NCBI GenBank assembly: GCA_013816585.1
Contig: JACDEE010000001.1
Location: forward strand, 263,001-327,000
DNA length: 64,000 bases
Reading direction: 5' to 3'
Origin: Sphingosinicella sp.
GTDB taxonomy: Bacteria > Pseudomonadota > Alphaproteobacteria > Sphingomonadales > Sphingomonadaceae
Shown: piece after piece, positions 15,753 through 58,122 of the stretch
Layout: every line of letters begins with the position of its first letter
How positions within the stretch are numbered: the stretch's first letter is position 1
Position numbers and translations under genes: made by a program
Notes under the pieces: model-generated
Seen by the model: the letters and a program-made list of their open reading frames with translations, nothing else
What the model was told of the DNA's origin: nothing
Databases searched by the model: none

Positions 15753-16708
15753 CCCAGATAGCGGCGGCCGCCGGCCTGTCCCGCAATATCCGACACGATG
15801 TAGAGTGGCCGATGCTTGGCCTCCATGAACAGACGGCCGAGATATTCGCCGATCATGCCCAGTACGAACATCTGCGCCGCGCCCAGCACCACCACCACCA
15901 GCATCAAGGAGGTCCAGCCCTGGATCGCCGATCCGGTGAAGAAGCCGAAGGCGATATAGAGCAAAAGGAGCACCGACGCGGCGACCAGCCACAGGCCGAT
16001 ATGGCTGGCGATGCGCAGCGGCGCGGTCGAAAACCCGGTCACCGCGTCGAGCGCGAACGCGAGCATCTTGCGAAGCGGATATTTGGTCACGCCGGCATGG
16101 CGCTGCGCCCGATCATAAAGGAACGGTACCTGTCGGAACCCGACCCAGGCGACCATGCCCCGGATGAAGCGCGCCTGTTCGGGAAGGCTGAGGAACGCGT
16201 CCAGCGCGCGCCGGCTCATCAGCCGGAAGTCGCCCGCATCCACCGGGATCTCGACTTCGGTAATCCGTGAAAGCGCGCGGTAGAAGATTGACGCGGTCGC
16301 TTTCTTGAACGCCGTTTCGCCCGCGCGCTGCCGGCGGACCGCATAGATGACGTCGGCTCCCTGCCGGTCCATTTCCTCCATCATGGCCGGAATCAGTTCC
16401 GGCGGATCCTGCAGGTCGGCGTCTATGATCAGGATTCTCTCGCCCGAACAAAAGTCGAGCCCGGCGGTCAGCGCCAATTGATGACCGTGGTTACGCGAAA
16501 GATTGATGGCGACGACGTGCCGGTCCTCGGCCGCGAGCATCTTCATCATGTCCCAGCTGTGGTCGCGCGACCCATCGTTGACGAGGAGGATTTCGAAATC
16601 GCCGCCCACCGCGACCTTCGCGGCCGTGGAAAGGCGGCGGTGCAGTTCGGCAAGGCAGGCTTCCTCATTATAGCAAGGAACCACTATCGAGAGCGCGACG
16701 CCCTTCAT
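15686..16708 (-). CDS. GT2 polyprenyl-phosphate glycosyltransferase (GtrB/DPM1-like)
   Basis: This 340-residue protein has an N-terminal GT-A catalytic domain and two C-terminal membrane helices (about 233-256 and 266-290). Motifs are SIVVPCYNEEACL, LLVNDGSRD, IIDADLQDPPE (the DXD-type metal site) and VDAGDFRLMSRRA, as in GtrB, ArnC and dolichyl-phosphate mannose synthases. These load a sugar from a nucleotide donor onto a polyprenyl phosphate at the cytoplasmic face. The last residues extend into the antisense of the methyltransferase gene. It shares four bases with the upstream membrane-protein gene, so the two are probably cotranscribed. The sugar transferred is not predictable. Confidence 0.9.
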   Translation of the reverse strand: MKGVALSIVVPCYNEEACLAELHRRLSTAAKVAVGGDFEILLVNDGSRDHSWDMMKMLAAEDRHVVAINLSRNHGHQLALTAGLDFCSGERILIIDADLQDPPELIPAMMEEMDRQGADVIYAVRRQRAGETAFKKATASIFYRALSRITEVEIPVDAGDFRLMSRRALDAFLSLPEQARFIRGMVAWVGFRQVPFLYDRAQRHAGVTKYPLRKMLAFALDAVTGFSTAPLRIASHIGLWLVAASVLLLLYIAFGFFTGSAIQGWTSLMLVVVVLGAAQMFVLGMIGEYLGRLFMEAKHRPLYIVSDIAGQAGGRRYLGHVAETIATNETPGVSETRPMT

Positions 16709-18324
16709 TTTTCTTCTCCAACGGTCGCGGCCGGCGGCCTGCCGGAAACGCGATACAGCACGCTGGAGCCATTGCGCCAGACCGGTTGCAATCCTCCGAG
16801 CAGAGCCGGGTCATGCGCGGGCGGCCGGATCAGCCAGATATAGTCGAACGCCTCGCGCGGAAGCCTGGTCAGGCTATTGTCGAGCGACAACCAATATTCG
16901 CCCCGGCACTGGCGCTGCGTGACCATCTGGGAAGGGTCGCGGACGAAGCGTCCGCCCTGGGGATAGCGGATTGTAAGGAGCTGGGCGCCGACCATCGTCC
17001 ACTGATCGTTGGAAAACGCATCCCGGCGAACGATCGCCATGGCGGGCAGATGCTCCAGCCGGGACATCTCCCAGGGCTGGCTGCAGGCAATTCCGGTGAA
17101 CGAAACGAGACGTGCACCCTTGGGAACATGAGCAAGCGCCGGAAGCTCCTCGTCATAGACCTTGTCGTACATCCAGAAGCTGATGGTCGTGGCGGCGGTC
17201 CGCACGACGAAGAAGGCGAATGACGCGACCGCGATCCAGTGCAGCGTCCGCGTCCCGAAGCTTGGTTTGAATCGGATCGCGAGCAACGCCATCGCAAAGG
17301 CATAGGGTGCGAGACGCATGTCCGCATAAGCCGATCCGAACACGATGCGCGGAAGGAGCAGGAACACCAAAGCCAGGAACACGGCGAACACCGCCAGCAT
17401 TCGCGAGAACCCGATCCGGCGGTGGAGAGCCGCGAACAGGATCACGGCCGACAGCAAGGCGACGCAGGCGATATCGAATATCTCCCAACGGTCGCGGAGC
17501 ATCATGTAGAGCCAGCGGAACTTATAAGCCCAATTGAACCAGTCGATCGTGCGACCGCCGACCTGGCCCGACCGCCAGGCGACCATCAGCAGCAACGGGA
17601 AAACCAAAGGCCAGCAGTCGAACGCCGCCTGATACCAGGCCTTCAGCCAGCTTTTGCCCTCGTCCCGGTGCCTGACCATCTCCGCCGCATAGGCCAATAT
17701 GCCGAGCACGCCCCAGCCGAAGGTGTGGACCACCCAGAGCAGGATCGAAAGGGGCACGAAGAGGGCGGCACGCAACCGGAATCGGCCCTTAATCGCCAGC
17801 CACCGCCAGAGCGCGAACGACAGCAGGGCCAAAGCGATGGCGAGGCAAAAATTGGCAAAGCCGAAGTGAAAGGGGAAGGAATAAGCGAAGGGCAGAGCAA
17901 GCGCCGCCGTCGGCGGGAGCGTACCGTGAACCACGCGGGCGATCAGAAGCAGGCCGGCGGCGGTTAGCGGCGGGATCGACAACACCACCAATTTCACCGC
18001 CAGTTCCAGCCCGAAAAGCTTTTCCAGCGGTATGACCAGCAGATCGATGCCGAGATTGCCGATCAGCCTCCATTCGAACTCGTAGAAGCGTTGCAGCGCT
18101 TCGGATTCGGCAAGGGCCATTTCAACCCGATAGCGTCCCATATGCCCGGGGAGGTCGACCAGCGGCGGAACATCGGGCAGCAACAGGGGAATGGCGGAAA
18201 GCAGTACGAGGATGAGCGCGAAGCGCGGCGTTTCCCACCAGCGCACGCTTCCTGTCCCTGTCATCGGTCCAACCTGCCCCATCAGGGCGGCATCTCTCGC
18301 TTCACCCTCCGGGTCAACCGTCAA
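16705..18324 (-). CDS. Large polytopic membrane protein of unknown function in glycan locus
   Basis: This protein has up to 539 residues and about ten membrane helices, with a soluble C-terminal region of roughly 140 residues. The first periplasmic loop reads PDVPPLVDLPGHMGRYRVEM; the DLPGHMxRY pattern recalls acidic/His loops of GT-C type glycosyltransferases, but no family can be named firmly. Alternative starts are ATG at 18282 and ATG at 18264 (MTGTGSVRWW), the last being the best fit to a membrane protein start. The stop overlaps the GT2 start (ATGA), so the pair is an operon. A periplasmic glycosyl transfer step using the GT2 product is my inference. Confidence 0.65.
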   Translation of the reverse strand: MTVDPEGEARDAALMGQVGPMTGTGSVRWWETPRFALILVLLSAIPLLLPDVPPLVDLPGHMGRYRVEMALAESEALQRFYEFEWRLIGNLGIDLLVIPLEKLFGLELAVKLVVLSIPPLTAAGLLLIARVVHGTLPPTAALALPFAYSFPFHFGFANFCLAIALALLSFALWRWLAIKGRFRLRAALFVPLSILLWVVHTFGWGVLGILAYAAEMVRHRDEGKSWLKAWYQAAFDCWPLVFPLLLMVAWRSGQVGGRTIDWFNWAYKFRWLYMMLRDRWEIFDIACVALLSAVILFAALHRRIGFSRMLAVFAVFLALVFLLLPRIVFGSAYADMRLAPYAFAMALLAIRFKPSFGTRTLHWIAVASFAFFVVRTAATTISFWMYDKVYDEELPALAHVPKGARLVSFTGIACSQPWEMSRLEHLPAMAIVRRDAFSNDQWTMVGAQLLTIRYPQGGRFVRDPSQMVTQRQCRGEYWLSLDNSLTRLPREAFDYIWLIRPPAHDPALLGGLQPVWRNGSSVLYRVSGRPPAATVGEEK

Positions 18325-18768
18325 GAATCGGCGGCATCAGCTGGCGTTGAATCCGGGCTCGGCCGGGCGCTTCGCCTTTAGCAGGGTCCGGGGACCCGGT
18401 CAGGAGCGAATTGGGCGCGGTAGTGCCGATCGAAGAAGGGCAGGATAGGGTCGCCGACGATCAGAATATCGGTATCGGGAAATTCGGAGGCCGTGATTTC
18501 GCTAGCCAGCGCCTGCCCTGTCCGGTCGAAAAATCTGGAGCAATCGGCAGATCACGGGAAATCGCCATCGAACTTCCGGTCGAAGCCTCTGCAATCCTTG
18601 GCACCCAGTCGTTTATTTTCCAGCACCGGAAGGTACGAAATTAACGGTCAGCCAGTGGAGAAACTGCAGAGGTTGCATCTGTTTGAGGGAAGGCGTTCAA
18701 CTTTGATACAGGGCGGCGGGACTAGACAGGCCTTATCAGGCGGAAGGCCGCCCATCAGGAGTTTGCAC
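18325..18768. other. 444-bp non-coding stretch with possible decayed minus-strand coding fragment
   Basis: No intact gene is seen here. On the minus strand one frame reads 57 sensible codons from 18551 to the TAA at 18378-18380 (including the segments FPDTDILIVGDP and FFDRHYRAQF). Above it, an in-frame TGA (18552-18554) interrupts further protein-like codons up to about 18630. No start codon is present, so this looks like the remnant of a gene's 3' end. Toward the right end, TTGAGG (18683-18688) and GATACA (18705-18710) with a 16-bp spacer could be a promoter for the EF-hand gene. That promoter call is weak. Confidence 0.4.
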
Positions 18769-19380
18769 ATGAAAAAGCTTTTAATCGCAGGCGTTGCCGC
18801 CGCTGCGCTCATTTCCGTTCCCGCGCTAGCATTGCAACAGGCCCAGGGCCGCACCGCGGCTCAGCCGCTTAGCCGAGCCGCCGTCCAAGCCAATGTCCAG
18901 GCACGCTTCGCCAAGGCAGATGCCGACCGGGATGGCTTCATCACCAAGGCCGAAGTCGAAGCCCGCGCCGGCGCCACGCGCCAGCAGCGCCAGGCGAAGC
19001 GTGGCGACCGCCGTGCTGAAACCTTCGCGCGTCTTGACGCCAACAAGGATGGTTCGATCAGCCGCGCCGAATTCGACGCCCGTCCCGCCCGGGGCGAAAA
19101 TCGCGCCGAGCGCCGCAACGACCGGCAGGATCGCCGCGGCGCCCGCATGGAACGGCGTGGAGAGCGTCACGCGATGCGCGGCGGCCGCTTCGGCGCCGGC
19201 ATGATCGACCGCGCCGACACCAACAGGGATGGCCGGGTCTCGCTCGCGGAAGCCTCTTCCGTGAGCCTCGCCCGCTTCGACCGCCTCGATGCCAATAAGG
19301 ATGGAATAGTCACTCCAGAAGAGCGTCGCGCCGCGCGGCAGCTCATGCGAGGCCAGCGGCAGGGACAGCCGAACGGCTGA
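18769..19380 (+). CDS. Secreted EF-hand calcium-binding protein
   Basis: This 203-residue protein has a Sec signal peptide (about residues 1-22, ending PALA). Four EF-hand loops are visible with DxDxDG patterns: 51-62 (DADRDGFITKAE), 90-101 (DANKDGSISRAE), 150-161 (DTNRDGRVSLAE) and 174-185 (DANKDGIVTPEE). Between the two EF-hand pairs lies a very arginine-rich linker (about 106-140). The start is ATG 18769 with AGGAG upstream. Such proteins are common in sphingomonads and related bacteria, with no fixed role. A strong terminator follows at 19414-19449. Confidence 0.88.
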   Translation: MKKLLIAGVAAAALISVPALALQQAQGRTAAQPLSRAAVQANVQARFAKADADRDGFITKAEVEARAGATRQQRQAKRGDRRAETFARLDANKDGSISRAEFDARPARGENRAERRNDRQDRRGARMERRGERHAMRGGRFGAGMIDRADTNRDGRVSLAEASSVSLARFDRLDANKDGIVTPEERRAARQLMRGQRQGQPNG

Positions 19381-41020: not shown

Positions 41021-41613
41021 CAGTTGGCCATCACCCCGCGCTCGCGCAGGAAGGCGAGCAGGGGAAGCAGCGGCAGCCCCAGGATCGCGAAATGACTGCC
41101 TTCGATCCTTTCGAACAATTGCACGCCCGGTCCTTCGATCCGATAGCCGCCGACGCCCCATCTTATCGCTTCATATTCCTCGTCCAAATAGAGGTTGAGG
41201 AATTCCGTGCCGAGCGGCCGCATGGTGAGCGCGACGCTTTCGCTGCCCCGCCACACGGCCTGGCCCCGCTCCGCCACGATCGCGGCCGAATGCAGGAAAT
41301 GGGTCTTGCCGCCGAGCGACAATAATTGCGCCAAGGCATCGTCGCGCGAACGCGGCTTGTCGAGCATGGTCCCGTCGCTCCGCTCCAGCATCTGATCAGC
41401 GCCGATGACCAGATCGTCTCCCGCCGGTACCGCCAGCGCCTTGGCCTCGGCCAGCGCGGCGGCCAGCGCCATTGCGCCCAGGCCCTGTTCACGCAAATCA
41501 GCCTTGATCCGTTCCTCATCCAGAACGGAATCCACCACCCCAAACGGAACGCCGGCCGCTTCGAGCATCGCCCGGCGCGCTTTGCTTTTAGACGCGAGCA
41601 GCAGCTTCATCAT
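41020..41613 (-). CDS. maf: Maf family nucleotide pyrophosphatase
   Basis: This 197-residue protein has the Maf signature LLASKSKARRAMLEAAGVPF, GADQML and the conserved KPRSRDDALAQL. Maf proteins hydrolyse non-canonical or canonical nucleoside triphosphates (dTTP/UTP or m7GTP types); the subtype is not decided here. Two adjacent ATG codons (41613, 41610) are possible starts. It overlaps the 3' end of ppsR by 26 bases, suggesting tight coupling. Confidence 0.93.
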   Translation of the reverse strand: MMKLLLASKSKARRAMLEAAGVPFGVVDSVLDEERIKADLREQGLGAMALAAALAEAKALAVPAGDDLVIGADQMLERSDGTMLDKPRSRDDALAQLLSLGGKTHFLHSAAIVAERGQAVWRGSESVALTMRPLGTEFLNLYLDEEYEAIRWGVGGYRIEGPGVQLFERIEGSHFAILGLPLLPLLAFLRERGVMAN

Positions 41614-42418
41614 CTTCCCGTTCGTCGCACAATTTGACGATGGCGAAAGCGGTTTCCTCGATCGACCGGCGGGAGACGTCGATCACCGGCCAGCCATTGT
41701 CGGAGAAAATGCGCCGCGCGAAGGCCAGTTCGGCGGCGACCGCCTCGGCGTCCACATAATCGGTCTCCGGCGCCTGGTTGAGCGACAGCAAACGGTTGCG
41801 GCGGATCTGAATCAGGCGGTCCGATCCGGTAGTAAGCCCCACCACCAATGGATTCTTCAATCCGAACAAGGATCGCGGCGGCGGCGATTCGGGCACCAAA
41901 GGAATATTGGCGACCTTGTAGCCGCGATTGGCGAGATAGATGGCGGTGGGCGTTTTCGAAGTCCGCGACACGCCAGCCAGCACGATATCCGCTTCCTCCC
42001 AATTGTCCGCGCCGATCCCGTCATCATGCGCGATCGTGAACTGGATCGCATCGACCCGCGCGAAATAGGCCGCGTCCATCGCATGCTGCCGGCCCGGACG
42101 CGCTTTGGCTTCCTGGCCCAGCACCGCAGACAGCGCGTCGACCACAGGATCGAGCGCCGACACGGCATGGATTCCGCGCCGGCGGCATTTCTGCTCCAGC
42201 TCTCGCCGGATATTATTGTTGGCGAGCGTATAGAGGACCAGACCGGGTCGCCGTTCGATATCGTCGAGTACCCGGTCCAGATGGCCTTCCGAACGAACCA
42301 TCGGCCAGAAATGTTTGAGCATTTCCACCCCGTCAAATTGCGCGAGCCCAGCCTTTGCAATGACTTCCAGCGTCTCCCCGGTGGAATCCGACAGGAGGTG
42401 GAGATGGCGCTCGCCCAT
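41588..42418 (-). CDS. ppsR: Pyruvate,phosphate/water dikinase regulatory protein (DUF299)
   Basis: This 276-residue bifunctional kinase/pyrophosphorylase family protein regulates PEP synthase or pyruvate phosphate dikinase by reversible phosphorylation. Signatures are HLLSDSTGETLEVIAKAGL and the P-loop-like GVSRTSKTPTAIYLANRGYKVAN. In alphaproteobacteria this gene lies directly beside the chromosome origin, facing hemE, as here. Its target enzyme is not in the window. No clear ribosome site is seen before ATG 42418. Confidence 0.94.
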   Translation of the reverse strand: MGERHLHLLSDSTGETLEVIAKAGLAQFDGVEMLKHFWPMVRSEGHLDRVLDDIERRPGLVLYTLANNNIRRELEQKCRRRGIHAVSALDPVVDALSAVLGQEAKARPGRQHAMDAAYFARVDAIQFTIAHDDGIGADNWEEADIVLAGVSRTSKTPTAIYLANRGYKVANIPLVPESPPPRSLFGLKNPLVVGLTTGSDRLIQIRRNRLLSLNQAPETDYVDAEAVAAELAFARRIFSDNGWPVIDVSRRSIEETAFAIVKLCDEREDDEAAARV

Positions 42419-42731
42419 ATTTGATTTTACCTGTGGAAAAACATGTTGAAATCGCTAGCTGAAGGCTTGGGGCGCTTTCAAGAAATTCATTCCTCCCCGT
42501 TGTTCGAAATCGATCCACAGGCAAGCCAACATGGGAAAAGTTCCATCCCCAGTCTGTGGATTTCGGGGATAAACTACGCGAATCCGCAGGGCGCCGCGGC
42601 CCATCTAAAGTCAAGCTGTTGGCAAGCCGGCGGCAAGACAATAAACCCCACCATCCGCCTCCCTACTACCTACAACTGACTCTCTATTAATAAGACTCTT
42701 TAGATAGAAGAGACGAGCCCGAACGGATCCC
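42419..42731. other. oriC: Predicted chromosome replication origin (oriC) between ppsR and hemE
   Basis: This is a 313-bp gap between the leftward ppsR-maf-aroE-coaE-dnaQ set and rightward hemE, the position of the Caulobacter-type origin. DnaA-box-like 9-mers are TGTGGAAAA (42432-42440, one mismatch to TGTGGATAA), CGATCCACA (42511-42519; one mismatch to the Caulobacter G-box TGATCCACA), TGTGGATTT (42555-42563) and CGGGGATAA (42564-42572). The right end (42660-42712) is AT-richer, with TATTAATAAG, a candidate unwinding region. TTAA at 42687 is a possible CtrA half-site only. parS sites and parAB follow to the right. Confidence 0.75.
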
Positions 42732-43757
42732 ATGCCGATCAAGCCCAAGCCATTGCTCACCGTGCTGAACGGCGGAAAAGCTGACATATTGCCGGTCTGG
42801 CTGATGCGTCAGGCCGGACGCTATCTGCCCGAATATCGGGAACTCAGGGCCAGGAAGGGTGGCTTTCTGGACCTGGTCTACGATGCGGACGCCGCGGCTG
42901 AAGTCACTCTACAGCCCATTCGCCGATTTGGCTTCGACGGCGCCATATTATTCTCCGATATCCTGATCGTGCCTCATGCCCTGGGGCAGGATCTGCGTTT
43001 CGAGGTGGCCGAGGGGCCTCGCCTCAGCCCTCCTTTGATCGACGCGTCGCTCAAGGCCCTGGAAGCCGTGCCACAGCGCCTCGAGGCCGTTTACCGGACT
43101 GTGGAGAAGGTCGCGAGGGCCCTGGCCCCTGAGACCGCTTTTCTGGGCTTTGCCGGCAGTCCGTGGACGGTCGCGACCTATATGGTGGCGGGCCAGGGTA
43201 GCCGGGAGCAGGCGGAAGCCCGAAGGATGGCCTATCGCGACCCTCCGGCTTTCGCGGCCATCATCGACGCGCTATCCGCGATGACCGTCGATTACCTGTC
43301 GGGCCAGGTGAATGCGGGCGTCGAAGCCGTGCAATTGTTCGACAGCTGGTCGGGCAGCCTGTCGCCCGATCAATTCGAAAAATGGGTGATCGCGCCGACC
43401 GCTCGGATCGTCGCCGATTTCAAATCCCGACATCCCGAAATCCCAGTCATCGGTTTTCCCAAAGGCGCGGGCGGCAAGCTCCCCGCTTATGCGCGGGAGA
43501 CAGGAGTGGATGCAATCGGTCTCGACGAAACCGTCGATCCGCGCTGGGCCGCGGCGATGCTGCCACCGGGGCTTCCGGTCCAGGGCAATCTCGATCCGCT
43601 CGCTCTGATCGCCGGCGGCGAGACGCTTGAAAAAGCCATCGACACTATCATATCTGCCTTTGAAGGGCGGCCGCACATCTTCAATCTTGGGCATGGCATC
43701 CTGCAGGACACGCCGATCGAGCATGTCGAGCAGCTCGTCAAACGGGTGCGCCGATGA
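42732..43757 (+). CDS. hemE: Uroporphyrinogen decarboxylase
   Basis: HemE decarboxylates uroporphyrinogen III to coproporphyrinogen III in heme synthesis. The 341-residue protein shows PVWLMRQAGRYLPEYRELR (the signature with the arginine clamp), ILFSDILIVPHALGQ with catalytic Asp, and GFAGSPWTVATYM. It is the first rightward gene from the predicted origin and is followed by hemJ after 16 bp. Confidence 0.97.
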   Translation: MPIKPKPLLTVLNGGKADILPVWLMRQAGRYLPEYRELRARKGGFLDLVYDADAAAEVTLQPIRRFGFDGAILFSDILIVPHALGQDLRFEVAEGPRLSPPLIDASLKALEAVPQRLEAVYRTVEKVARALAPETAFLGFAGSPWTVATYMVAGQGSREQAEARRMAYRDPPAFAAIIDALSAMTVDYLSGQVNAGVEAVQLFDSWSGSLSPDQFEKWVIAPTARIVADFKSRHPEIPVIGFPKGAGGKLPAYARETGVDAIGLDETVDPRWAAAMLPPGLPVQGNLDPLALIAGGETLEKAIDTIISAFEGRPHIFNLGHGILQDTPIEHVEQLVKRVRR

Positions 43758-49249: not shown

Positions 49250-49265
49250 TGTTCCACGTGGAACA
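49250..49265. other. parS: parS site 1 (ParB-binding palindrome)
   Basis: TGTTCCACGTGGAACA is a perfect 16-bp palindrome matching the bacterial parS consensus. It occupies the short mnmE-mnmG spacer, immediately after the mnmE stop. ParB is encoded at 52585-53460. Confidence 0.92.
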
Positions 49266-51150: not shown

Positions 51151-51809
51151 TGGACGAGGAAGCGGCCCGGTCGTGGGTGGAGCAGAATTTCAATGTTTCA
51201 CGTGAAACAATGGGGCTGCTAGATGCCTTCATTGTGTTTCTGGAAGCCCAAAATGAGCTCCAGAATCTTGTTTCACGTGGAACATTGGCGAACGTTTGGA
51301 CCCGCCATATTGTCGATTCAGCTCAATTATTGACATTCGCACCGACCAAAAGCGGGAGCTGGCTCGACCTGGGAACGGGTGCGGGATTCCCGGGATTGAT
51401 CGTCGGACTGTTACACGAAGGTCCAGTGACTCTCGTGGAGGAGCGCCGAAAAAGGGCGGAATTCCTTCAGCAGGCCGCGGGATTGCTCGGCATCGCCGAC
51501 AAGATTTTCATTAAGGCCGTAAAAGCCGAACGCATCGAATCAATCGCCTATAACGTGATAAGCGCGCGTGCTTTCGCCCCGCTGGACCGTCTTTTGGAGA
51601 TTAGCCACAGGTTTTCCACAGATAAAACGCGCTTCATCCTGCCAAAAGGGCGAAACGCATCTTCCGAACTGGAAGCGGCCAAAGCTTCATGGCAGGGTGA
51701 CTTCCGGCTCGAACAGAGCCTTACCGACGCCGATGCGCGGATCATCGTCGCGGAACGGGTAAGCCCGAAGGCCCAAGGCCTGGCGGCAAAGGGGAGGCGC
51801 GTTCGATGA
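51150..51809 (+). CDS. rsmG: 16S rRNA (guanine527-N7)-methyltransferase RsmG
   Basis: RsmG (GidB) methylates G527 of 16S rRNA. The 219-residue protein shows the SAM loop DLGTGAGFPGLIVGL and the usual KFNLVSR-like segment, here QNLVSRGTL. Two parS sites lie inside its 5' part and encode NVSRET and LVSRGT. Its TGA overlaps the parA ATG (ATGA). Confidence 0.95.
   Translation: MDEEAARSWVEQNFNVSRETMGLLDAFIVFLEAQNELQNLVSRGTLANVWTRHIVDSAQLLTFAPTKSGSWLDLGTGAGFPGLIVGLLHEGPVTLVEERRKRAEFLQQAAGLLGIADKIFIKAVKAERIESIAYNVISARAFAPLDRLLEISHRFSTDKTRFILPKGRNASSELEAAKASWQGDFRLEQSLTDADARIIVAERVSPKAQGLAAKGRRVR
51194..51209. other. parS: parS site 2, inside rsmG
   Basis: TGTTTCACGTGAAACA is a perfect 16-bp palindrome matching the parS consensus, within the codons for NVSRET of RsmG. 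Confidence 0.93.
51269..51284. other. parS: parS site 3, inside rsmG
   Basis: TGTTTCACGTGGAACA fits the degenerate parS consensus with one break in palindromy. It lies 59 bp after site 2, within the codons for LVSRGT of RsmG. Confidence 0.9.
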
Positions 51810-52588
51810 TAAGAATAGCCGTAGCCAATCAAAAAGGCGGCGTGGGCAAGACCACCACCGCGATCAACCTAGCGACGGCTCTCGCCGCCACCGGTTGGAA
51901 GGTCCTCCTGGTCGATCTGGATCCCCAGGGGAATGCCTCCACGGGTCTCGGCGTCGGCCACGATCAGCGGCTTCGTTCAAGCTATGAATTGCTTACTGGC
52001 GAATGCACGCTGGATGAAGCCGTGATCGCGACGCGTGTGCCCCGCCTCGACCTGATCGCCTCCACGGTCGATCTTTCCGGCGCGGAGATTGAGCTCGTCG
52101 AATATGAGGAGCGTACCCACCGGCTCGATAAATCGCTGAACGGCGCCACTCCCGGACGTTGGGATGTGTGCCTGATCGACTGCCCGCCGTCGCTTGGCCT
52201 GCTGACGATCAATGCGCTCGCGGCGGCACAATCGATCCTGGTGCCGCTGCAGGCCGAATTCTTTGCTCTCGAGGGCCTTAGCCAGCTCCTTCAGACGGTC
52301 GAGAGAGTCAGGGCGCGCTTCAATCCGGAGCTTACCATTCTTGGCGTGGCCCTCACCATGTACGACAAGCGCAACAACCTATCGAGCCAAGTGGCCGACG
52401 ATGTGAAGGCCTGCCTCGGCAAGACCGTGTTCGACACCGTCATTCCCCGCAACGTACGCTTGTCCGAAGCGCCCAGCCACGGAATCCCCGCCTTGATCTA
52501 CGACATTCGCTGCCCCGGATCCGAAGCCTATATGGCGCTTGCCCGCGAATTGATCGCGCGGCTGCCCAAGCCGGCGGTGGCGGCGTGA
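51806..52588 (+). CDS. parA: Chromosome partitioning ATPase ParA
   Basis: ParA is the Walker-type ATPase that moves ParB-parS complexes during chromosome segregation. The 260-residue protein has the deviant Walker A KGGVGKTTTAIN (from residue 10), DLDPQGNASTGLG, and the Walker B VCLIDCPPSLGLL. It starts in the rsmG stop and overlaps parB by four bases. Confidence 0.97.
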   Translation: MIRIAVANQKGGVGKTTTAINLATALAATGWKVLLVDLDPQGNASTGLGVGHDQRLRSSYELLTGECTLDEAVIATRVPRLDLIASTVDLSGAEIELVEYEERTHRLDKSLNGATPGRWDVCLIDCPPSLGLLTINALAAAQSILVPLQAEFFALEGLSQLLQTVERVRARFNPELTILGVALTMYDKRNNLSSQVADDVKACLGKTVFDTVIPRNVRLSEAPSHGIPALIYDIRCPGSEAYMALARELIARLPKPAVAA

Positions 52589-53460
52589 GCGACGAAATCC
52601 CGCTGAAGAAACGTCCCTCGGGCCTCGGCCGCGGATTGTCCTCCCTGCTGGGGGAGGTGGCGCAGGAAGCACCGCTTTCCGGCGGACGCGGCCTGCAGAT
52701 GCTGTCGGTTTCCAACATCGAACCCAATCCCGCCCAGCCGCGCCGCCATTTCGATGATGCGGCCCTGGCCGAACTGGCCTCGTCAATCCAGGCGCGGGGG
52801 CTGATCCAGCCGATCGTCGTACGGCCGCACGGCGCGCGATACCAGATCGTCGCCGGCGAACGACGCTGGCGCGCGGCGCAGGCGGCGCGATTGCACGAAG
52901 TTCCGGTCATCGTCCGCGAATTCGACGATATCGAGACCCTCGAAGTCGCGATCGTCGAGAATATCCAGCGCCAGGACCTCAATGCGATCGAGGAAGCGGA
53001 GGCCTATAAACGGCTGATCGACGAGTTCGGCCACACCCAGGAAGCGCTTGGTCGGCTGGTCCACAAATCGCGCAGCCATGTGGCTAACCTTCTGAGATTG
53101 CTTGACCTTCCTGACAAAGTGAAGAATTTGCTGGCGTCAGGCGAGATCAGCATGGGCCATGCTCGCGCGCTGATTTCCGCCGACGATCCCGAAGCGATGG
53201 CAGTCGAGGTTGCCAAACGCGGACTTTCGGTACGGGATACCGAAAGACTGGTCCGCTCGGGCAGGCCGCGAAAGCCCGGGGAGCGTCCGGGCGGAGCCGT
53301 CAATGCCGATATCGAAGCGCTGGAGCGGCAATTGGGCGACATGGTGGGGCTCAAGGTCAAGATCACCCACGCCCCTTTGGGCGGTACCGTGACGCTCGTT
53401 TATTCGACATTGGATCAGCTCGACATGATCTGCCAACGCCTCAGCGGCGAGAAGATCTAG
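52585..53460 (+). CDS. parB: Chromosome partitioning protein ParB
   Basis: ParB is the CTP-dependent DNA clamp that loads at parS. The 291-residue protein has the N-terminal CTPase/ParB domain (NPAQPRRHFDD, GERRWRAAQAA, ENIQRQDLNAIEEA), a helix-turn-helix DNA-binding domain (LVHKSRSHVANLLRLL) and a C-terminal dimerisation segment. The start is GTG 52585, overlapping the parA stop. Its target sites are the three parS sequences upstream. Confidence 0.97.
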   Translation: MSDEIPLKKRPSGLGRGLSSLLGEVAQEAPLSGGRGLQMLSVSNIEPNPAQPRRHFDDAALAELASSIQARGLIQPIVVRPHGARYQIVAGERRWRAAQAARLHEVPVIVREFDDIETLEVAIVENIQRQDLNAIEEAEAYKRLIDEFGHTQEALGRLVHKSRSHVANLLRLLDLPDKVKNLLASGEISMGHARALISADDPEAMAVEVAKRGLSVRDTERLVRSGRPRKPGERPGGAVNADIEALERQLGDMVGLKVKITHAPLGGTVTLVYSTLDQLDMICQRLSGEKI

Positions 53461-58070: not shown

Positions 58071-58082
58071 GGGGTAATCCTT

Positions 58083-58122
58083 AAAAACTTGAGTTGCGCC
58101 TGAAAAACTTGAGTTGCGCGTG
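58083..58122. repeat. Two tandem 20-bp direct repeats upstream of DUF3576 gene
   Basis: AAAAACTTGAGTTGCGCCTG (58083-58102) is repeated directly at 58103-58122 with one difference (C to G at unit position 18). The unit lies in the 5' region of the leftward DUF3576 gene and could be a pair of regulator sites or a recent slippage duplication. Confidence 0.8.

Follow-up and report, generated by a model that had tools for sequence, protein, structure and literature searches.

The 313-base gap (42419-42731) that separates the divergent genes ppsR and hemE is very probably, at a probability that we put near 0.92, the oriC from which a sphingomonad close to Sphingosinicella and Allosphingosinicella replicates its chromosome, as the initial annotation of this DNA had proposed. 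This reading holds because in relatives a dif-like site lies opposite the gap and exact parS sites lie beside it, because the DnaA boxes keep their places and orientations across 22 aligned gaps, and because the gap contains the weakest duplex of the window, i.e. of the whole 64,000-base stretch analysed (263001-327000 of contig C32 of the genome G000, a draft assembly of 2.82 Mb in 62 contigs). For a sphingomonad lineage that has been little studied, the origin is thereby located on grounds that do not depend on the weak GC skew. The less ordinary part of this predicted origin is a single, strongly conserved bipartite element next to the DNA unwinding element (DUE).

Gene order and chromosomal position of the gap

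The left border gene is ppsR (DUF299, COG1806 type; 41588-42418, minus strand; PF03618, E 1.1e-92; NF003742) and the right border gene is hemE (42732-43757, plus strand; TIGR01464, E 9.9e-119), so that the borders initially annotated at 42419 and 42732 are confirmed. Leftward from the gap the order is ppsR, maf, aroE, coaE and a gene for a dnaQ-like exonuclease, which on this side agrees with the earlier comparison to Caulobacter-type origins, where hemE faces a DUF299/maf/aroE/coaE/dnaQ set; a position between hemE and a DUF299 (COG1806) gene is that of the alphaproteobacterial hemE-type oriC. Rightward past hemE come a hemJ-like ORF (its TIGR00701 match falls below the family cut-off), rho, a TerC-family gene, mnmE, mnmG, rsmG, parA (51806-52588, plus strand; PF13614) and parB (52585-53460, plus strand; PF02195, PF17762 and PF23552). 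Three parS sites accompany them: TGTTCCACGTGGAACA, an exact palindrome at 49250-49265, and two exact fits to the degenerate consensus inside rsmG, TGTTTCACGTGAAACA (51194-51209) and TGTTTCACGTGGAACA (51269-51284). The parS sites and parAB thus lie to the right of the gap as annotated, 6.5-10.7 kb away.

ppsR was found in 59 of the 60 relatives searched, and hemE is its divergent neighbour at all 50 loci compared (our own and those of 49 relatives, L002-L051), a set that leaves aside 10 further ppsR-bearing relatives. Among the best 80 of 312 loci from named genomes the ppsR-hemE pair is present in 79, L199 having no usable pair; the nearest named relatives in this selection include Sphingomonas parva, Sphingosinicella terrae and Allosphingosinicella vermicomposti, and the lineage is placed near Sphingosinicella/Allosphingosinicella by protein similarity only. 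For comparisons across the family we used 36 gaps plus the 79 from named genomes, i.e. 115 gaps, or 103 distinct ones once 12 repeats are removed.

Dif-like sites were sought with two words, the first of which, modelled on XerCD sites, matched in 5 of 9 genomes and the second, taken from the match in G007, in 12 of 13 (G028 had none); a reversed control pattern gave zero matches in both searches. Eight of the 60 relatives (G007, G009, G019, G033, G039, G048, G052 and G056) are single-contig records with one dif-like site each. The gap and dif are separated by 46.3-49.4% of the chromosome in all seven of these with known length (G019 49.4%, G009 48.1%, G007 47.3%, G033 49.3%, G039 48.8%, G052 49.3% and G056 46.3%). 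The record of the eighth, G048, opens with the gap and runs to at least 3,136,683 bases, and its dif-like site, at 1,592,404, is about half way along. The dif-like site of G022, a genome in three contigs, is 38% of a contig from the gap, that contig not being the whole genome. An opposite terminus, a feature of the hemE-type oriC, is accordingly seen in relatives only, the gap and dif of our own draft being on different contigs. Likewise, the exact parS sites all lie within 11 kb of the gap in each of the eight genomes with a readable distance, our own included, those of G048 being at the far end of its record; one-mismatch parS words are also found beside the gap, the exceptions being a word in G039 some 231 kb away and another some 16 kb away.

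These distances bear directly on the alternative that the origin lies at dnaA, as in many bacteria, to which we give next to no credence. It is favoured by the fact that the G019 record begins about 1.1 kb from a dnaA match; chromosome records are commonly numbered in this way. Against it, the distance between dnaA and dif is 7.7% (G019), 20.7% (G009), 10.5% (G007) and 36.2% (G033) of the chromosome, so that dnaA is not the antipode of dif, six dnaA loci contain 0 or 1 DnaA box (at most one mismatch) per ~3 kb, and the accessible part of one study describes dnaA as not conserved near the origin in Sphingomonadales (PMC8116508). In G019 the record start near dnaA (contig 1, base 1093) and the hemE gap lie 43% of the chromosome apart, and numbering from dnaA could mislead about the origin in this group.

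GC skew was also considered as the main proof of the origin and was rejected as weak and unable to locate it. Sampling 20 stretches of 20 kb from each of three single-contig relatives, we obtained for raw GC skew between the two sides P values of 0.02 (G019), 0.65 (G009) and 0.18 (G007). In all three the predicted leading strand had the higher fourfold-site skew when sites were sorted by gene strand (differences 0.041, 0.036 and 0.061; label-permutation P 0.0075, 0.105 and 0.027), the five best splits per genome falling 164-424 kb from the gap. Our own contig has no skew step at the gap, with 15 stretches to the left or up to it at about -0.001 and four to the right at about 0.000; within the window the cumulative skew has its minimum at 44-46 kb, near the gap, at a scale where single genes dominate. 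Skew is reported to be insufficient in several Alphaproteobacteria in the portion of the earlier study available (PMC1914354). Elsewhere in the window there is a strong local AT skew of 0.21-0.24 at 16001-19000 (two overlapping 2 kb windows), and a 20-base unit occurs twice in tandem at 58079-58119, no other tandem repeat being reported for the window.

Conserved DnaA boxes and the DNA unwinding element

To define the constrained positions we aligned 22 gaps, 21 from the genus of the window, our own included, and one (L023) from another genus. Sixty-three of the 280 ungapped columns are invariant; of the 134 fourfold sites in the two border genes only 2 are (1/66 in ppsR and 1/68 in hemE). Invariant runs of at least three bases comprise GTGGA in box 1, GCTA, CAAG, CCA in box 2, TGTG in box 3, GGG in box 4, CGA within a GANTC site, three runs (GTC, CTGTT and GCAA) that belong to the left half of the bipartite element, and finally ATAAACCCC, the longest of all. 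GCTA is part of a conserved palindrome, GCTAGC, at 42454-42459, and it lies with CAAG (42479-42482) between boxes 1 and 2; we know of no origin element that matches either.

The four DnaA-box-like 9-mers of the initial annotation are present at the places where it put them. Box 1, TGTGGAAAA (42432-42440, plus strand), has one mismatch and becomes a perfect TGTGGATAA in 6 of the 22 aligned gaps; box 2, TGTGGATCG (42511-42519, minus strand), has two mismatches and reads on the plus strand as CGATCCACA, which differs at one position from TGATCCACA, the G-box of Caulobacter; an exact G-box occurs in 2 of the 22 gaps. Box 3, TGTGGATTT (42555-42563, plus strand), and the abutting weak box 4, CGGGGATAA (42564-42572, plus strand; a GGGGAT box), have two mismatches each. 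The word TCCCCA, identical to the Caulobacter W-box consensus, is found at 42546-42551 on the plus strand, and exact copies are present somewhere in 18 of the 22 gaps, at varying positions. We accordingly recognise in the gap three conserved putative DnaA boxes, two rightward and one leftward, together with the weak box 4, all of which hold their place and orientation across the aligned gaps.

Single box-like words carry no weight, since their counts in the whole window are near chance: 82 against 71.7 expected with up to two mismatches and 9 against 4.4 with up to one, a single one of the latter nine being in the gap. The evidence resides in the cluster, which amounts to four words in our gap against 0.69 expected (P 0.005, 5000 first-order shuffles) and to 257 against 42.85 in the 50 gaps of our own genome and 49 relatives, with an excess in every one of the 50. 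Such a conserved, above-chance cluster of DnaA boxes is a further feature of the hemE-type oriC. The order of the three boxes was tried as a diagnostic pattern and discarded: it recovered the gap in 6 of 9 genomes, missing G001, G005 and G017, and matched a second place in our own genome, on contig C25. The word GTCAAGCTGTTKGCAA, with at most one mismatch, occurs in 6 of 9 genomes, always in the gap, and has 0 matches in the remaining three, which belong to other genera.

The right flank, described earlier as AT-richer, proves to hold the weakest duplex of the 64 kb, set against hemE: the 51 bases at 42663-42713 are the least stable of the window in a scan by nearest-neighbour energies, ranking first at 30, 40 and 50 steps, and we take them to be the DUE. 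In 101 of the 103 distinct family gaps, and in 113 of the 115 that include repeats, the least stable 40-step stretch has its centre no more than 80 bases from the start of hemE; an AT-rich, easily melted region is again a feature of the hemE-type oriC.

The place of the DUE-proximal DnaA box is occupied in our gap by ATCCGCC (42653-42659, minus strand), which was assigned by alignment only and falls under any usual box threshold, while other genera have a TCCACA box there. In ten gaps from other genera (L027-L036) the TCCACA box is present in 10/10 and is followed by GGGC in 8/10, then by a CAAC-type tract and then by the DUE. Eight of these ten aligned rows share a different conserved word, AAATCGGGCA, approximately where our own lineage has its bipartite element. 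On the right strand of the last 170 bases no box was found in our own gap, and one in only 1 of the 21 gaps of the genus (L019, where it overlaps the ATAAACCCC block). DnaA-trios are not clear in this genus, as judged by eye only, and the basal unwinding arrangement, in which a recognisable DnaA box sits next to DnaA-trios at the DUE, was not found. The earlier suggestion that this lineage may use weaker DnaA sites holds in part: the DUE-proximal box is degenerate in the genus, but box 1 has its perfect form in the six gaps mentioned above.

Taken at face value, several of these observations would also fit the view that the gap holds no more than conserved, divergent promoters for ppsR and hemE, on which DnaA perhaps acts as a transcriptional regulator, with the origin elsewhere: divergent genes need promoters, box-like 9-mers are common across the window, the bipartite element could be the hemE promoter, and our own contig lacks a skew step. 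This is very unlikely, however, in light of the location of dif opposite the gap in 7/7 measured chromosomes, the clustering of exact parS sites at the gap in 8/8 measurable genomes and the presence in the gap of the weakest duplex of the window.

GANTC motifs, CtrA sites and origin-linked proteins

Three GANTC (CcrM-type) sites are present in the gap: GAATC beside boxes 3 and 4 (42580-42584), at which place GANTC is found in all 22 aligned gaps, and GACTC twice inside the DUE (42678-42682 and 42694-42698); 21 of the 22 gaps have GANTC within their last 60 bases. The count in our own gap, 3 against 1.3 expected, is not significant. Across the family there are 486 against 149.7 expected in the 103 distinct gaps, or 548 against 166.8 in the 115 that include repeats, and in the latter GANTC is the most enriched of 16 words of the same shape, AGNCT (2.2-fold) and TANTA (2.0-fold) being also raised.

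The CtrA word TTAA-N7-TTAA, a feature of the Caulobacter Cori, is not found in our lineage: it is exact in 0 of the 22 gaps and within one mismatch in 2, and the best match in our own gap has two mismatches. Among the 103 distinct family gaps 25 contain it with at most one mismatch and 8 exactly. A group comprising L158, L165, L166, L169, L183, L189 and similar gaps, and including some Sphingorhabdus and Parasphingorhabdus, carries a CtrA-like TTAA-N7-TTAA at one conserved place (around base 164). As this conserved word is absent from the lineage of the window, CtrA control of the origin may differ within the family.

Our genome encodes several proteins linked to such origins, namely a DnaA with an intact GRDHTTV motif (seen in five of the six dnaA loci fetched, and by pattern not in L213), GcrA, a RAMA-domain protein of the CcrM kind, whose domain was found among 14 control genomes only in Caulobacter, and IHF alpha, with 120.9 bits against a family cut-off of 120.25.

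A conserved bipartite element beside the unwinding element

The bipartite element consists of a left half, GTCAAGCTGTTGGCAA (42610-42625, plus strand), and a right half, ATAAACCCC (42641-42649, plus strand), the latter being invariant as a whole word in all 22 aligned gaps and present in 21/21 gaps of the genus when scored by TAAACCCC. The pattern of the lineage is GTCAAnnTGTTkGCAA plus ATAAACCCC at a fixed spacing, without a recognisable DnaA box beside the DUE. An IHF-like site (42609-42621), within or at the left half, has one mismatch to WATCAANNNNTTR, the general IHF consensus, as distinct from the published Cori IHF sequence; the best IHF match has two or three mismatches in 15 of the 22 gaps.

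Over the wider family the left half, as TCAAnnTGT[TC], occurs in the right part of 87 of the 103 distinct gaps. A right-half word like TAA/TTA..CC follows it at 21 bases in 70 of these 87 and at 20 bases in 5, none being found by pattern in 12; several Sphingomonas among the 31 of the 79 named gaps viewed have ATAAGCCCC as the right half. Near the DUE, 12 of the 16 distinct gaps that lack the left half carry a canonical box, versus 6 of the 87 that have it, a count over related species that is no independent test. As the patterns were composed after viewing the alignments, all these counts describe rather than test. The combined pattern TGTTKGCA-N16..19-ATAAACCCC matches once per genome, always in the gap, in all nine genomes of the genus searched; a single match per genome is the chance expectation for ~17 fixed letters, so that only the presence in 9/9 is informative. 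It nevertheless supplies a practical origin marker for the genus.

In our reading the bipartite element probably joins an IHF site and an altered initiator site that share one helical face. Going further, the Sphingomonadaceae might possess two interchangeable and largely mutually exclusive DUE-side platforms, the bipartite element, as TCAAnnTGTT followed 20-21 bases on by a TAA(A/G)CC-like word, and the canonical DnaA box, with unwinding in our lineage nucleated by another protein or by DnaA in an altered binding mode. We regard this as speculative and rather unlikely; it is prompted by the longest invariant run being a non-DnaA word placed 21 bases, or two helical turns, from the IHF-like site.

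A competing possibility, which we take seriously while leaning against it, is that the element TGTTGGCA ... ATAAACCCC is the hemE promoter, with TTGGCA as its -35 and a -10 like CATAAR, and that transcription through the DUE helps to open the origin. The fixed spacing (21 bases in 70 and 20 in 5 of the 87 distinct gaps) would fit a promoter, as would the location of ATAAACCCC ~80-90 bases upstream of hemE and pointing at it; furthermore, the available portion of a study in Caulobacter presents hemE transcription as important for replication (PMC8959179). On the other hand, a sigma-70 scan of 42300-42850, with a consensus that may not be that of the host, gave no promoter, the motif occurs at just 1 of 188 upstream regions of our own contig, namely the gap itself, and a dyad search over 721 upstream regions (our own and three relatives' stretches) gave nothing similar among its 30 highest-ranked dyads. 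The distance from TTGGCA to ATAA is also short for sigma-70. Sequence-only tests do not separate an altered initiator site from a hemE promoter. The same segment, 42300-42850, contains no intrinsic terminators and has no Rfam match up to E 0.1, with the proviso that Rfam may not hold CcnA.

The anatomy of the predicted origin allows a sequence of events to be proposed. DnaA would load on boxes 1-4 and IHF would bend the DNA at 42609-42621, bringing a DnaA oligomer onto the DUE (42663-42713), which would then melt and take up two helicases leaving in opposite directions, in keeping with the bidirectional firing that we infer. The ATAAACCCC block probably replaces the DUE-proximal box, no recognisable DnaA box being present there in the genus. 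Methylation by CcrM at the GANTC sites next to box 3 and within the DUE may label an origin that has just fired, after which ParB at the parS sites would segregate the new origins. Which factor binds the ATAAACCCC block is the experimental question that this raises.

Comparison with known origins

The layout of the E. coli oriC for recruitment of the single-stranded DUE is DUE - R1 - IHF - R5M. Our gap presents these element types in the same order as a mirror image, with the DUE, the place of a degenerate box, the IHF-like site and the abutting boxes 3 and 4; it differs in that its DUE-proximal box is not recognisable and in having GANTC in place of GATC. The basal unwinding system of a DnaA box plus DnaA-trios, as presented in the accessible part of its description (PMC8287927), is roughly matched by the gaps L027-L036, with their TCCACA box, GGGC in 8/10 and CAAC-type tract, whereas the genus of the window has no such box and its trios, by eye, are not clear.

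Among the characterized origins, the Caulobacter crescentus Cori shares with the gap the hemE and DUF299/COG1806 borders, an AT-rich region and GANTC within the origin, as far as the available portions of the published accounts go (PMC1914354, PMC4285127, PMC4468827, PMC8959179, PMC3973325). On the same accounts both have few DnaA boxes of moderate or weak quality, represented here by a box 2 one mismatch from the G-box and by one exact W-box word. The gap differs from Cori, so described, in lacking a TTAA-N7-TTAA CtrA site, in an IHF-like site that fits the general consensus and not the published Cori sequence, and in yielding no RNA family, a search in which CcnA may not have been represented.

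Closer to our lineage, we found no experimentally mapped sphingomonad origin in the open-licence literature on Sphingomonadaceae oriC and DnaA, which does not prove that there is none. The accessible part of a genome study predicts oriC near hemE for most Sphingomonadaceae and, for Sphingopyxis, reports a DUE together with putative DnaA boxes that are conserved; Sphingopyxis granuli TFA and its relatives share with our gap the hemE border, putative DnaA boxes and a putative DUE (PMC4741004). The window is nearest to a genus other than Sphingopyxis, and the alignment in that study may or may not mark the bipartite element and its spacing. In both place and parts the gap matches the published Sphingomonadaceae and Caulobacter-type origins (PMC4741004, PMC1914354, in the portions accessible), and it is well supported as an ordinary origin of a known kind.
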